From Massariosphaeria phaeospora (Eukaryota; Ascomycota; Dothideomycetes; Pleosporales), in contig JAADJZ010000022.1 of the NCBI GenBank assembly GCA_011032825.1, positions 124,001-188,000 on the forward strand: a stretch of 64,000 nucleotides of DNA. Reading direction: 5' to 3'. A program made the translations under genes and the position numbers. The stretch's first letter is position 1, and each line of letters begins with the position of its first letter. This document shows positions 13,750-53,875 of this stretch, piece by piece. Below the pieces are notes generated by a model. That model did no database searches. It saw only the letters and a program-made list of their open reading frames with translations, and had not been told where the DNA came from.

Positions 13750-15000
13750 ACAATTGTCCAGCTTGAATCTTATCTATTGCGTCGAGGCGAAAGGTCAGCG
13801 AAATAACAGCATCGGATCCCAGTATATGAGTTCAGAGTGTCCAGGGTATAGCCATCGAGCACGGGACCATTTTCCCTCAATCTTCGGATGATGAAAGTGT
13901 GCGATCCAATGCGCCCGGCTTCTGTCTCGTGCGTTGATGTGTCAACCTCACAGCGAAATGAGGCCTGACAGCAGACACCAGCGTCCGCCTGACAAGCCAC
14001 TCTATGTCTCCCGCAACAACCACGGAATCCACCGCAACGACGAGGGCTCTTGGGTCGGCTCTGAGATCGTAGAGAGTAAGCTTCACCCCGTGGATACCGA
14101 CGCAGTCGAAGATGCTGAAGGTGTGCCAGCCCGACGCGTCGATTCCTTCGGACTGTGGGGTAAAGAGTTAGCGGCATCAAGACCGGGACCATTTTCACTC
14201 ATATCCTAGATTAAGGAAAGCGCGAAGCGCCGGATCCGATGAGGTCATTCTCGGTAGCGTGTGTTGATGTGTCAACCTCACCGCCGAATGAGGCCTGGCA
14301 GCAGACACCGGCCTCCGCCTGACACGCCACTCCATGTTTCCCGAATCATACACGGATTCCACCTCCAGTTCTCTAACGAAGAAGGGCCTTGAGTCGGCTG
14401 TGGTATCCTCCTCGGGAGTATCGTAGAGAGTAAGCTCTACCCCGTGGATACCGACAGAGTTATAGACGTGCCAGCCCGAGGCGTCGATTCCTTCGGACTT
14501 TGGGGGAAAGAGTTAGCGGCGAACGAAGGTCGATAACATGGGAACAGGAGGATCCGGATAGGTGTGTGCGAGGTGAGTTGTGGCACGGAGACCTTGGATG
14601 GAGGCTCTTGAGACCGTGTCGTCCCTTTCCATCTACTCTTACGCCCAGGCATCGCCCCCTCTCAAGAGATTCGCAATGAACCAGCCATCCCGCTCGAGTT
14701 TCTGGGCGTAGAATCGTCAGCCACCCTCCGTCAGACTCGCTAGATGCGACGTTGTGCACTTGCACGTGACCGAAAGCGCAGTACATCCCGATGGAGATAT
14801 TCTCCAACTGGGTATTCCCGGCTCAACCCTCGTAACAGTCCAACGGTCTCTACTACGTTCGGCCGACCTCGAATGAGACGCGTTCGGAATGTCCTGCGAT
14901 ATGCGTCACGCCGTGGGACACTCAAGCTGCGGTGGTCGAAAAATCCTGAATTGATCCAGCCGAATTGGCGGACGGGCTGGAGATCGTGGTTAGCCTAAGT
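13750..15000 (-). pseudogene. decayed unknown gene with internal tandem duplication
   Basis: On the minus strand several coherent peptides can be read but in shifting frames with stops, for example ISIGMYCAFGHVQVHNV near 14800 and SEGIDASGWHVYNSVGIHGV near 14480. No intact frame or plausible splice set links them, so this looks like a decayed gene. The family is not recognised. Two diverged copies of a roughly 320-bp unit lie inside it; see the repeat entry. Confidence 0.5.
13857..14525 (-). repeat. two-copy tandem repeat of about 320-330 bp
   Basis: Copy one (about 13857-14172) and copy two (about 14178-14525) share long stretches: gttgatgtgtcaacctca at 13932 and 14262, aatgaggcctg, gcagacacc, gtagagagtaagct, ccccgtggataccgac, and gtcgattccttcggact near the end. 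The same minus-strand frame in both copies reads SEGIDASGWH...GIHGV(K/E)LTLYD...EW(L/R)VRR, showing that a coding segment was duplicated and then diverged. Confidence 0.75.
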
Positions 15001-48447: not shown

Positions 48448-48452
48448 TATGG
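48448..48452 (+). repeat. target site duplication TATGG (left copy)
   Basis: TATGG directly precedes the left LTR and is repeated directly after the right LTR at 53871-53875, as expected for integrase-mediated insertion with a 5-bp stagger. Confidence 0.92.
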
Positions 48453-48658
48453 TGTTGCAGTGTAGAATGCAGTGAAAACAAAAGTATTGTGTATTGTTCT
48501 GTTGTGTTGTTTTGCTCGTGCTGCCCTCTCGAAGGGCCAGCAGCAGGGTCTATTTACATGACGTATCTATGATACAGCTGAGGTAAGAGGTACTCGATAA
48601 GTGAGGAAGTAGCACTAGAACACCATTACGTGATCTGCTTCTCCTCATAACCGCAACA
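48453..48658 (-). repeat. 3' LTR of Copia element
   Basis: 206-bp LTR at the left side of the window element, the 3' LTR in the orientation of transcription. It matches 53665-53870 with no difference seen by eye. Many CA dinucleotides are kept in both copies, so this LTR shows no sign of RIP. Confidence 0.95.
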
Positions 48659-48672
48659 CACCCCCTCATCCT
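48659..48672 (-). other. polypurine tract
   Basis: On the minus strand AGGATGAGGGGGTG lies immediately inside the 3' LTR, where plus-strand DNA synthesis is primed in LTR elements. Confidence 0.75.
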
Positions 48673-48703
48673 GTAGTCGTCTCACGACGTAAGGATGAAC
48701 CTC

Positions 48704-51700
48704 TCAGGCGTTGTTCTCCATCGCACGAACCTTTGAACGAATATCGATCTGGTGGAGTTGCTGTACAAATTCAACGTGCTTCTGTCGAGGAAGGATCTTC
48801 GTCATGCCGTCAGCAGGCATTTGGTTCGTGGGCTTCCAGTGGACGTAGAGGCGGTTCTCCTCGACCTCTTGGCGGATCCAGTTCTGGTGAATGTCGACGT
48901 GTTTAAGCTTGGTACTAAGCTTGTCCTGCTCCTTCGTGACTATGCCTACTGTCTGTTGGTTGTCACACCAGATGATAGGCGTCTGGTTTAGCTTCAAGGA
49001 CAGTCCTTTGAACAGGCGGCACTACTCCTCCATTTCTGATCCAGTTAGTGATAGAGCGAGCAGCTCTGCTTTAGTCGTTGATTTCGTGACAGTGCGTTGG
49101 AGTGTCGACTTCCAGTCAACAGTCATGCCAAACAGCTGAAATACGTATCCTTGAGAGCTTCGGCGCGTCTCAACGTCGTCGGCAAAGGAGGCATCAGATG
49201 CTCCAAAGAAGATAGGATCGCGATAGTCCTGTGGTGTAGCGAGATACTCTTGTATCTCTGCTTCGTCAATAGCTTGAGCCTGCAGAGCTCGGTACTTTGT
49301 CTCAAGAATGTGACGCCACACCCTTCGAATAGATTCGACGTGCGCTTGACCTGGGTTGGTCAAATGTGAAGCGTGGATGACGTGAGCGCGAGCCAGATTA
49401 GGTCGTGTATACTGCGTTAGGTAGGCAAGGTAGCCTACAAGCTCTTGATAGGTCTTCGTTCGAGCTCCGTTCGGTTCCTCGAGGGATTGTTCTAGGTAGT
49501 TTACTAGCATAGGCACCTCAGAAGGGCGGCTAGTAGAAATAATGTTGTATTTAGCGGCAACTTTGTCAATGTAAGCGTCCTGTACTAAGTGAATCGTGCG
49601 TGCGTTGGTGTCTCGAACGACGCGTATGCCCAAGAACCACTTGAGTTCTCTAAGGCATTTAAGGCTATAATGCTCGTCGAGCTTCTTCTCGAATTCTTGG
49701 TGTAGATGCCTGTTTGATGGGTGGAAAGCCATGACGATATCGTCAACGTAGACGAACAGAATCAACTAGCTGTTGGCGTAGACGCATGGAAATCCTGATA
49801 TAGGCGTTAAGCCCAAAGACTTCAGTGTCTCTCTTAGGTCCTTGTACTACAAGAGCGGTGATTCCTTTAGTCCGTACAGGGCTCTCAGCACCTGTAGTAG
49901 CTTTCTATTTTTCTTGAAACCATCTGGTGTCTGGGCGTAGAGCTTTCGATTGAGTGTAGCGTTGAGAAACGCGTTCGGTACGTCGTACTGAAGTAGCTCT
50001 AATCCGAATTGATTGGCTATCGCGATGAGTGCTCGAAATGTTCGAGCAGCTAGTGTAGCAGCGTAGGTATCTCCATATGGCTGCTGTAGGTCGCCGCGGA
50101 CGACAAGTCGTGCCTTGAATCGATAGAGGTAGCCGTCTTTATCGAACTTGTATGTGAATACCTACATTAGGGGTAGCACCTCTGCGTTAGCAGTCTCTGC
50201 TGTTTGTGTCGTTCTGGCGAAGCAACCTTTGCTCCATATCTCACGATACTCTTTCTGCGCAGCTTGTCGAAACTGCTCTCCAAACAGATGAGATTCGAGC
50301 TCCTGATATGATCGAGGAGCTCTCGGCACCTGCGAACGGTGTATCTTTGTTGTCGGCTCAGCCTTTAAGGCAGTTGAGAAAGCTCTAAGGTAGTTGTCAA
50401 CTGATCCTCTGTATGAGACGGCGTGAGAGTGCCATCTCTCTGGCGCTTGGAGATTAGCATTTCGTCGTGTACGTCGTGGGCCTTCGATGACGTTGTCGGT
50501 GCTAAAATCAAGGTTTCGACGTTTTGGAGCGTTGTTCTCATGTCGATTAGGTATATAGCCTTCAATCTGAGTTGCAGAAAGTTCCTGAGATCCTCGTGAT
50601 GCGTTGGATAGTTGTTCGTAAGCTAATTGCTCATCCAGAGCGTGTTGCTCTAAATCTGAGGACAGAGAATCGTTCTGATTTCGTCCATCTCGTCCTTCTG
50701 GAGTTGAGGGACCTGGTGTCAACAGTCCATTGTTGTACTGCTCTATTTCTTTACCCCTCACCTGTGACTCGAAGAGCGCAGGTGCGTCTGCATTCTGTCG
50801 TTGACAGCGTTGTCGTGTCGTCAACAGGTCTTCGATGGCCATGTCGTCTAGCTCGAACTCCTCTGGAAACGATAGAAGCTCAATAACCTCTTCAATTACT
50901 GATTCTTGAGCGTAGCCTTGCAGGTCTTCGTAGAATTTCGTGAGTTCAAAGACGACGTCTCGTGTGCGTATGACCTGGTCCTTGGTAGGTAGCTAGATCC
51001 TGAATATGTTGGTAGAGTCGTAGCCAACTAGGTGGCCAATAAGCGCTCTCGATTCGAGCTTGTCCGCGCGCTTGAGTGATCGGTTGAGAACGTAGGCTCG
51101 ACATCCAATTGGACGCATGTGCTGAACCTTCGGCTTCGTTTTCCAAACGATCTCGTACGGTGTCTTCCATTGCAGCGCTTTAGTTGGTGTTCGGTTCAGG
51201 ACGTATGCCGCTGTTCGAATTAGCTCATGAGACAAGGACTTCGGCAGTCCTGCTTGTATCCTCATGGCTCTAGATCGAATGACGAGAAGCGATTCTGCTC
51301 GCTCTGCTAGTCCATTCTGCTCTTCTGTATACTCAGCTCGTGCCTCGTATCGAATACCAAGTTCTCTGCAAAGTTCTTCTAGGAAGTTCAGCGACGTGCC
51401 GTATCCACGTTCGTTGTCTGTCTTGATAGCTGTTACGTCATAGTTGAAGATACGCTGTATGCTGCGTATATCCTGGATCAACCATCGACTCAGAAAAGGC
51501 TTCGATCGGTGAGGGAAAGTAGAGACTTTGTGCCATTTCGAGTATTGATCAACTGAGTGTCCAGCCCATCGATCACCGTTTAGGCAGGCTTCTCTCTGTG
51601 GTACGAGTTGAATGACGTCAACAGAGATTCGATAGAAAGGCTTTTGAGCTTGGTCCTTCTGCTGTCGTCGCGAGATCTGCTTCGTCAACTTCGACTCTGT

Positions 51701-53494
51701 ACAAACAGTACAGAACTCGTTAGTGTCGCCTTCAACGACAAGACCGTCGACGTTTGCTGTAAGCTTCTCGATCGCTTTCTTGCCAGGATGACCTTATATC
51801 TGGTGAGCTGTCCTAGCATCGACTGTCTGATCCGGGCGTGGAGCCTTCGAGGGTCGGTAGGTAGTGCCAAAAGATGACAGCATGATCGGCTTCGGTCGGC
51901 GCAAGGCTTCGGCGTCTACTAGCTAGTGTCCTTCGTCGTGCTCCAGGTACGCAAGGACGTTTCCTAGATCGTCCTTGTACAAGAGATCCCGTCTTGAATC
52001 GAAGTGTATGCCTAGCTTCCTGCAGCGAGCCAAGCCAATTAGGCTAGTAATGAAACCTTCGACGTAGGCGACGTGAGTGAGCCTTAGCGATCGTGCGCCT
52101 GCGGGCGTGTTTGCTATGAGCTCCATGCTTCCCTAGGTCGTGATCTGGACACGTCCTGTTCCAGCACTAACAAAGTCAGTAGAGACTGCGTCGTACTCTC
52201 TCGTCTATCTCTCCTATTCCTCGCTGTTGATCACATGAGTGTTGGAGCTAGGGTCAAGGATCCATCGGTTGCTGAGCTTGTCAATATCCTCTTCTATGCT
52301 CACTGCTGTGTAGAGGTTGCCTTCTGGCTTCATGTCGTCATCTGCGATCGTTATCGTTTCGACTTGATCATCGTTGTCATCTAGAGCAGGTTGCTCTAGG
52401 TCTTGTATCATGTACCGTACAGTGTTTGCTGTAGGTCTAGTAGGACGGCTGCCATCGTCCATGGCAATGCTCCCTCCGTTCTCTTGCTGCTTCGCGCGCC
52501 ACTTGTCGAGCGCCTTGTTGATTTTGTCTCTCAAGTCGTTGTCGGCGGCCAGGGCAGCGTCGAGCTTCTTTCGTCCAATCGCATTGGCGTAGGCCTTTGG
52601 CCTTCGTGGGTGCTCTGTGTTGATCAACCAACAGTCAACCCAGTAATGTTTTAAGCCACATGGGCATTTCGGTTTTGTCTTGTTGCTATTCTTGTTCTGC
52701 TGCTGAGGCTTCGCAACGTCGAGCTCTGCAGCCATCGAGCTGAGTCCTGTCGACAGCGGTAGTACACGCTTTAGGTAAGTAGTGAACTTGCTAACGTAGT
52801 CTTCTACAGATGGAATAGCGGTGCCAGCGTCCTCGAGGTCGATTAGGGCTCGCAGGCCTGACGTACTATACTCTAGATCAATTGTTCTGCAGGCGACAAG
52901 AAAATCTTCCTGTGCCCGAGATCCCATTGTCTCTGGGATCTCTGCGGCTATGCACATGTTGGTAATCTCCACCCAAGAGCGTAGCCACTCCTCAACCTTC
53001 CTGCTGCGTGGCGGCGTCTGGAGGCCTTTGTATCGTGCGATAAGATCGCGTTGTCGTGTTGCGTCAGACGGTGCAAGGTGCTTCTTGAGCGTCGTCAATC
53101 GATCGTGCGGCGTGTCCTTGTTCTCGATGAGGTAAAGGTGCTTTGCAGCAATCGTCTTGCTAATCTCAGAGTTAAACTCAGCGAGAGCCTTCTTCTGACG
53201 CTTGAACTCAAGGTCCTTCCGCTCCCATCGCTCGTACTCCCACTGGAATAGCTTCTGCTGTGCCACAGTGAGATGGGCAAGGGACGTCGCGTCATTGTTG
53301 TGATCCGTCAGTTGAGGTTCGACTGGTGCCAGTAACGTAGGCAGATCCGCTGCCTTCGTGGCAGGGTCAACGTACTGCCAGAGTTCGTTCTTCTGGGCAG
53401 TATCCTTTCGTATGAACAGCCACTTGTGCCAGTCGTCAGCTCGATCGAGGACGACAGTCACTCGGGTGACCGCAGGGTCTGACTCGGTAGTCAT
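48704..53494 (-). pseudogene. Copia gag-pol polyprotein, in frame but with ten Trp-site stops
   Basis: One frame of 1,597 codons from ATG 53494 to a TGA at 48704-48706. Order: Gag with zinc knuckle-like KCPCGLKHYWVDC; protease WILDPSSNTHV (fungal Copia usually DPGSN); integrase with GHPG, CTVC, ISVDVI, TDNERGYG and EEQNGLAE; RT with LQQPYG and the YVDD site; RNase H with GASDASFADD and TKAELLALS. Stops are at 52214, 52205, 52133, 51923, 51794 (TAA), 50993, 50162, 49847, 49766 and 49022 (lowest coordinate of each). Most lie where Copia motifs expect Trp: HQI-stop-GHPG, NIFRI-stop-LPTK, LPLM-stop-VFTYKFD, YANS-stop-LILFVYVDD, SEMEE-stop-CRLF. About 25 Trp codons remain TGG. No stop replaces a codon that looks like Gln. 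Read conventionally this copy makes only Gag. Confidence 0.9.
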
Positions 53495-53651
53495 CGTTCT
53501 TGGTAGTTCAGTAGCTCCGTACAGTATGACCTATCGAGGTCTCGGTCGTAGGTGCTAGTCGGCGGCTCCGTACAGTATGATCAATCGTTGATCTCGATCG
53601 TAGGTGCCAATCAGTCGTTATAGGTGAGTGAGCGAGCTTCTCAGTCGCAAT

Positions 53652-53664
53652 CCGGGCTCATAAC
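53652..53664 (-). other. primer binding site (half-tRNA-iMet type)
   Basis: The plus strand reads CCGGGCTCATAAC directly inside the 5' LTR. GGGCTCATAAC equals the anticodon stem-loop of fungal initiator methionine tRNA, so the element RNA (minus strand) can pair with an internally cleaved tRNA-iMet, as known for Drosophila copia. Confidence 0.8.
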
Positions 53665-53870
53665 TGTTGCAGTGTAGAATGCAGTGAAAACAAAAGTATT
53701 GTGTATTGTTCTGTTGTGTTGTTTTGCTCGTGCTGCCCTCTCGAAGGGCCAGCAGCAGGGTCTATTTACATGACGTATCTATGATACAGCTGAGGTAAGA
53801 GGTACTCGATAAGTGAGGAAGTAGCACTAGAACACCATTACGTGATCTGCTTCTCCTCATAACCGCAACA
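53665..53870 (-). repeat. 5' LTR of Copia element
   Basis: 206-bp LTR at the right side of the element, the 5' LTR in the orientation of transcription. It carries the element promoter and matches 48453-48658 with no difference seen by eye. Confidence 0.95.
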
Positions 53871-53875
53871 TATGG
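53871..53875 (+). repeat. target site duplication TATGG (right copy)
   Basis: Second copy of the TATGG target site, directly after the right LTR. Confidence 0.92.

Follow-up and report, generated by a model that had tools for sequence, protein, structure and literature searches.

Background

In Neurospora crassa, repeat-induced point mutation (RIP) converts C to T in repeated DNA with nearly no transversions, in strand-exclusive runs and with a preference for CpA, in a genome that carries cytosine methyltransferase genes; 91.9% of its mutation clusters were strand-exclusive, and the authors concluded that one round of RIP attacks one strand at a time (PMC7296669). In Leptosphaeria 90% of RIP sites (PMC4352252) and in Zymoseptoria 240 of 242 RIP changes (PMC10294615) lie at CpA, and a RIP-like bias at TpCpG has been reported for Microbotryum (as cited in PMC4352252). 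A distinct phenomenon that involves UAG at tryptophan positions is the documented sexual-stage adenosine-to-inosine editing of premature stops from UAG to UGG in Fusarium graminearum, as in PUK1 and AMD1 (PMC5496914). Here we analyze a Copia-type long terminal repeat (LTR) retrotransposon copy, termed E1, whose gag-pol frame is interrupted by ten stops and which lies in a window of 64,000 nucleotides from the dothideomycete Massariosphaeria phaeospora (contig JAADJZ010000022.1, positions 124,001 to 188,000). Like the Ty1/Copia elements (Pseudoviridae) of other Pleosporales it has short LTRs, a 5-bp target duplication, a single gag-pol frame and an RVT_2 reverse transcriptase, with open gag relatives in several Pleosporales, and differs from them only in its mutations.

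A first-pass annotation of the window had noted that all ten stops sit at apparent tryptophan positions and offered three explanations: (a) strand-biased RIP of an ancestor that is now mobilised in trans, (b) adenosine-to-inosine (A-to-I) editing of the mRNA and (c) suppression of UAG, with the suggestion that the element might be regulated by stop-codon editing. Comparison with the other copies in the host assembly (42,079,485 bases in 51 contigs) leads us to the view, to which we give a probability of roughly 0.93, that E1 was disabled by repeat-targeted mutation, either RIP or a close equivalent, acting on one strand after a recent insertion.

Tryptophan-only stops and one-strand mutation in E1

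We recovered five full-length copies of the family, each with a 5-bp duplication: E1 itself, E2 (contig C34), E3 and E5 (both on C23) and E4 (C29); the other six, E6-E11, are incomplete, divergent or split by insertions. None of the eleven is free of stops over the parts read. In the register of E1, internal stops number 10 in E1, 18 in E2, 54 in E3 and 63 in E4 (each over 1,596 codons), 13 over 1,585 codons in E5, 43 over 1,582 in E6, 52 over 1,583 in E7, 100 over 1,536 in E8, 83 over 1,281 in E9, 7 over 246 in E10 and 25 over 438 in E11. The ten stops of E1 recur to different extents, with five present in E2, five in E5, eight in E3 and all ten in E4, the last two copies being heavily mutated. 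Elsewhere, named Pleosporales and metagenomes yield homologous gag proteins free of stops (48 proteins, E <= 0.001).

The structural description given earlier holds: a gap-free alignment of E1 with three sister copies spans the full 5,418 bases, in agreement with a frame of 1,597 codons devoid of frameshifts, and its internal stops are nine TAG and one TAA, TGA serving solely as the terminal stop. The LTRs (206 bp) are indeed 100% identical and the target duplication (TATGG/TATGG) perfect. The frame lies where it was placed, at 48704-53494, but the element as a whole extends beyond these limits to both LTRs (48453-53870).

The restriction of the stops to tryptophan positions is real. Scoring the ten sites in the ten other copies gave 81 site-by-copy cells with data, 68 of them stops and 13 sense codons, and all 13 sense codons, spread over eight of the ten sites, encode tryptophan. 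The remaining two sites carry a stop in each of the nine copies in which they could be read. For the first of these, tryptophan is present in 6/6 aligned homologous proteins and in 5/6 copies of a related Copia family, and for the second the related family has tryptophan in three of six copies and a stop in the other three. Six of the ten sites can be aligned in this second family (six copies), where 32 aligned cells comprise 20 tryptophans and 12 stops. At the five upstream sites, those of the 48 homologous proteins that reach them have tryptophan in 12/13, 12/13, 11/11, 7/8 and 6/6 cases, the non-tryptophan cases being one arginine and two alignment gaps. The claim that no stop replaces glutamine also stood up to this comparison, with E1 retaining 86 glutamine codons and having a stop at none of the 86 glutamine sites scored.

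Pairwise differences among E1-E4 consist of 114-462 transitions and 0-1 transversions. When changes were polarized within these four copies, at sites with G or C retained in one or more of them, E1 displayed 40 G>A and 3 C>T changes in the coding orientation (p = 3e-9 against equal strands), whereas E2, E3 and E4 are altered on both strands (G>A and C>T, respectively: 31 and 52; 199 and 139; 243 and 230). The changes of E1 are single-stranded along the entire element, while those of E2 alternate between strands. It is this one-strand attack that accounts for the tryptophan-only pattern, because TGG becomes TAG or TAA when the template strand is deaminated, whereas stops from CAA, CAG and CGA require attack on the coding strand. 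Consistent with this, where E2, E3 and E4 have stops, E1 carries glutamine (7, 22 and 27, respectively), arginine (2, 5 and 6) and tryptophan (4, 19 and 20), in addition to the shared stops (5, 8 and 10). The 3'-neighbor spectrum of E1 is statistically indistinguishable from those of E3 (p = 0.68) and E4 (p = 0.84). For simple RIP the first-pass annotation had expected changes confined to one strand and TGG at all ten sites in other copies; E1 conforms to the former, but tryptophan is kept elsewhere at eight of the ten sites rather than at all.

Stops are no more numerous in E1 than chance would give. Shuffling the 40 polarized G>A changes of E1 among sites of equal trinucleotide context predicts 5.6 nonsense changes against 6 observed and 20.8 missense changes against 18 observed. 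Likewise, tryptophan codons of E1 are changed at 8/33 sites as against 47/296 other TpG sites (p = 0.22), or at 10/34 if the codons that are stops in all copies are counted as tryptophan sites.

Sequence context and the candidate mutator

Examination of the neighboring bases revealed a strong dependence on the 5' base. Among E1-E4, 611 of 1,336 cytosines following a pyrimidine are variable, compared to 23 of 1,418 following a purine (odds ratio 51, p = 8e-196). The same context (YC, where Y is a pyrimidine) recurs in the second Copia family (L052-L057; 201/536 versus 20/579, odds ratio 17) and in six repeat pairs outside the first family (in L033, L034, L036-L039 and L047; 423/694 versus 101/1,617, odds ratio 23). 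These six were scored out of 20 listed pairs, most of the others having low identity or overlapping one another. Two of the six share a single insertion and are not independent, and all six are taken here simply as repeats. On the 3' side CpA is favored, with 286/729 CpA sites variable in E1-E4 as against 348/2,025 other sites (odds ratio 3.1). The YC preference seems to characterize the RIP-like process of this genome.

The putative process resembles that of N. crassa in its C>T changes in repeats, near lack of transversions, strand-exclusive runs, preference for CpA and accompanying cytosine methyltransferase genes, and departs from it in a near requirement for a 5' pyrimidine and in the share of changes at CpA, which is only about half. 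As in Microbotryum the 5' base matters, but there the reported motif has T before and G after the cytosine, and here T or C precedes and A is favored after. The TpCpG bias does provide a precedent for an influence of the 5' base in itself. A YC rule for RIP was not found stated in the text passages searched (PMC6180176, PMC4352252, PMC10234303, PMC13207899, PMC12543289, PMC7296669, PMC10294615, PMC11969663, PMC7882544 and PMC8016269), a weak negative, as supplements were outside the scope of that search.

Searches with PF00145 (cytosine methyltransferase) returned four matches at three loci in the genome. The protein on contig C1 is 100% identical to one recorded for M. phaeospora, and its relatives include several named Dim-2, pointing to a DIM-2-like gene, and none of the relatives listed for the gene piece on contig C50 is labeled RID. 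The third frame (L050; C23:1290093-1290560), for which Pfam gives PF00145 only, has a Cys-rich stretch resembling a RING finger and is perhaps DNMT5-like. A W-C-W context is known for Magnaporthe. It is conceivable, though we consider it rather unlikely, that deamination in this genome is due to an enzyme with an APOBEC-like reading of YC or to a methyltransferase of changed specificity, instead of the CpA-reading machinery of Neurospora and Zymoseptoria.

Timing of the mutations and the case for one-strand RIP

Taken together, the favored explanation would run as follows: a Copia element was recently inserted at 48453-53870, after which RIP or a close equivalent would have deaminated cytosines on the template strand of gag-pol, so that the coding strand acquired some 40 G>A changes. 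With a 5' pyrimidine needed and a 3' A favored, CCA, the complement of TGG, would be a hot site; tryptophan codons would have become TAG, and once TAA, while glutamine codons, vulnerable only to attack on the other strand, would have been spared. This explanation is built on the restriction to transitions, the strand exclusivity, the context, the chance-level number of stops, their differences among copies and the stop-free older C>T changes. The process itself is presumably RIP, putative cytosine methyltransferase genes being present in the genome, and the mutations probably postdate the insertion.

The older changes bear on the timing. We read as probably ancestral those sites that are altered in all of E1-E4 but not in E5 (L012). 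On the C strand such changes are enriched after a pyrimidine (odds ratio 3.96, p = 2.2e-7; third codon positions alone, odds ratio 3.04, p = 0.0009), with a lesser value on the G strand (odds ratio 1.49, p = 0.2). The C-strand set fixed in E1-E4 after a pyrimidine comprises 38 synonymous changes, 8 missense changes and no stops, whereas E3 and E4 together have 122 copy-sites with synonymous and 184 with other changes (p = 5e-8; sites changed in both copies enter twice), and the corresponding G-strand set comprises 18 synonymous changes, 13 missense changes and 2 stops. As no stop is found among the inherited C>T changes, the mobile ancestor, on that count, kept its frame. It seems that the common ancestor of E1-E4 was touched by the mutator while selection kept the frame open, most stops having arisen later, as though an active lineage had come through light RIP with mostly silent changes.

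Several observations weigh against this reading of E1. Its synonymous changes number 16, slightly above the null (mean 10.0, 95% range 5-15; with LTRs left out, 6-16). CpA accounts for only 21 of its 40 G>A changes and for 238 of 473 changes in E4, unlike published RIP in Leptosphaeria and Zymoseptoria, though the CpA share is a species difference among RIP fungi and not a defining feature of all RIP. None of the 126 changes of E1 and E2 lies in an LTR (P = 0.0009), although simple RIP should affect the repeat over its full length; the LTRs of E3 are also under-hit (P = 0.035 and 0.003), and those of E4 are not. Two stops recur in every one of the nine copies that could be read at their codons, where 0.14 such stops would be expected given independence and equal mutability (p = 0.0056; test based on 26 complete codons of 34). 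Lastly, two further stops are fixed in E1-E4 where E5 has a sense codon, so that some stops may predate the insertion. We read the stops shared across copies as probable hot sites.

The same shared stops argue for the strongest competing account, namely trans-mobilisation, through an intact helper, of an ancestor that RIP had already hit and that bore stops, some of the stops being inherited through transposition rather than made at the present site. The excess of YC-context C>T changes already present in the ancestor of E1-E4 and the clean LTRs of E1 and E2, which are identical to each other, would also fit this account. However, the stop-free set of inherited C>T changes fits a working ancestor, and the stops common to E1-E4 among the 33 polarized tryptophan codons are 2 against 1.05 expected (p = 0.28). 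Moreover, E1 and E2 share only 2 of 21 TpG changes (p = 0.37; sites mutated in all four copies are omitted, which lowers the count), and one of the two universal stop sites is tryptophan in all six homologous proteins aligned there. We accordingly regard trans-mobilisation as improbable. Of explanation (a), then, strand-biased RIP is strongly supported by the strand polarity, the transitions, the YC context and the chance-level stops, and the added trans-mobilised ancestor appears unneeded, given that E2 shares just five of the ten stops and that the inherited C>T changes include none.

Other sources of the stops

Another process that might yield coding-strand G>A changes is deamination of the minus-strand complementary DNA (cDNA) by an APOBEC-like enzyme during reverse transcription. 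The preponderance of coding-strand G>A in E1 (40 of 43 changes) agrees with it, as does the YC context, which is preferred by many APOBEC enzymes. Against this, E2-E4 are altered on both strands, leaving E1 as the only copy changed on the coding strand alone; the two target duplications of E4, which lie outside the element, differ by one CpA to TpA change; and the same context is seen in the six other repeat pairs. We deem this origin very improbable. A search of the genome for APOBEC_N gave no match, but as the controls were likewise matchless it is uninformative. Ultraviolet (UV) damage also favors YC; we rejected it by inference. Tandem double changes number 1/131 adjacent pairs in E1 and 0/131 in E2 on the G strand, and 0/77 in each on the C strand.

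A-to-I editing of UAG to UGG at the ten sites during the sexual stage would explain why ten of ten stops sit at tryptophan positions, and the edited stops of PUK1 and AMD1 in F. graminearum (PMC5496914) provide a precedent in which UAG likewise occupies such positions. In the E1 family, unlike in those genes as described there, the stops are copy-specific and arise at the chance rate among other mutations, including 18 missense changes in E1. Further, 19 of the 40 G>A changes fall outside TpG; conservation of the stops is lacking, as just 5/10 of those in E1 recur in E2, and likewise five in E5; sister copies have stops at glutamine and arginine sites; one stop of E1 is TAA, which would require two edits; and the host is a dothideomycete rather than a Sordariomycete. 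Editing is hence hardly credible here, and the notion of an element regulated by it finds no support in stops that differ between copies and occur at the rate predicted from context. Suppression of UAG, or its recoding as tryptophan by the host or the element, is favored by nothing but the occurrence of UAG at tryptophan sites and is equally implausible, as 24 TGG codons remain in E1, the frame ends in TGA and has TAA among its internal stops, copies differ in which tryptophan codons are stops, and the chance-rate stops and the glutamine- and arginine-site stops of the sisters speak against it as well. One-strand RIP would render editing and suppression unnecessary, rather than disprove them.

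Organization of E1 and its surroundings

E1 has the LTRs, target duplication and RVT_2 reverse transcriptase of Ty1/Copia elements (Table 1). Two of the six pieces between its stops have Pfam matches, to SH3_retrovirus and RVT_2; the SH3_retrovirus piece is upstream of the RVT_2 piece, and a match to the integrase core is absent from the between-stop pieces.

Table 1. Features of the E1 copy, with coordinates in the 64,000-nucleotide window
Feature	Coordinates	Strand	Evidence
E1, Copia-type LTR retrotransposon copy, 5,418 bp	48453..53870	-	Identical terminal repeats, target duplication, same-length copies elsewhere, RVT_2 and SH3_retrovirus matches in pieces
5' LTR (coding orientation), 206 bp	53665..53870	-	100% identity to 3' LTR; zero RIP-type changes in four-copy comparison
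3' LTR (coding orientation), 206 bp	48453..48658	-	100% identity to 5' LTR; zero RIP-type changes in four-copy comparison
Target-site duplication TATGG, low end	48448..48452	.	Perfect match to high end
Target-site duplication TATGG, high end	53871..53875	.	Perfect match to low end
gag-pol frame of 1,597 codons ending in TGA, interrupted by ten stops (nine TAG, one TAA)	48704..53494	-	
gag part, 426 open codons up to first stop, without Pfam match	52217..53494	-	48 homologous proteins, E <= 0.001
Integrase-side piece between two stops, retroviral polymerase SH3-like domain	50993..51793	-	PF25597, E 8.4e-12
Piece bounded by two stops on the reverse transcriptase / RNase H side, containing YVDD	49022..49765	-	PF07727, E 2.5e-10

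The 12 bases adjoining the 5' LTR (53653-53664) are a likely primer-binding site, occurring 25 times genome-wide and in several cases beside other Copia LTRs; they appear similar to the anticodon arm of initiator tRNA-Met. Of 56 candidate LTR matches 40 were scored, 14 of these in E1-E7 and 26 elsewhere, and the latter may be solo LTRs. E6 (L035) and E7 (L033/L034) are split by insertions of about 3 kb and 9 kb, respectively, the one in E7 containing a distant Copia relative and tandem repeats. Elsewhere in the window, 13853-14520 is an imperfect tandem repeat (about 73% identity across 355 aligned bases).

Implications

One-strand RIP can mimic stop-codon editing, by leaving a dead element with all of its stops at tryptophan codons, and recognizing this removes a misleading lead. 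Screens of fungal genomes for edited UAG should first consider strand polarity and the share of nonsense among all changes. A single dothideomycete genome here offers copies of the same element that were hit on one strand, on both strands or heavily, along with traces of what seems to have been an ancestor tolerant of mostly silent C>T changes. If the 5' pyrimidine rule holds beyond this genome, RIP indices based only on dinucleotides such as CpA and TpA would miss a major part of the signature.

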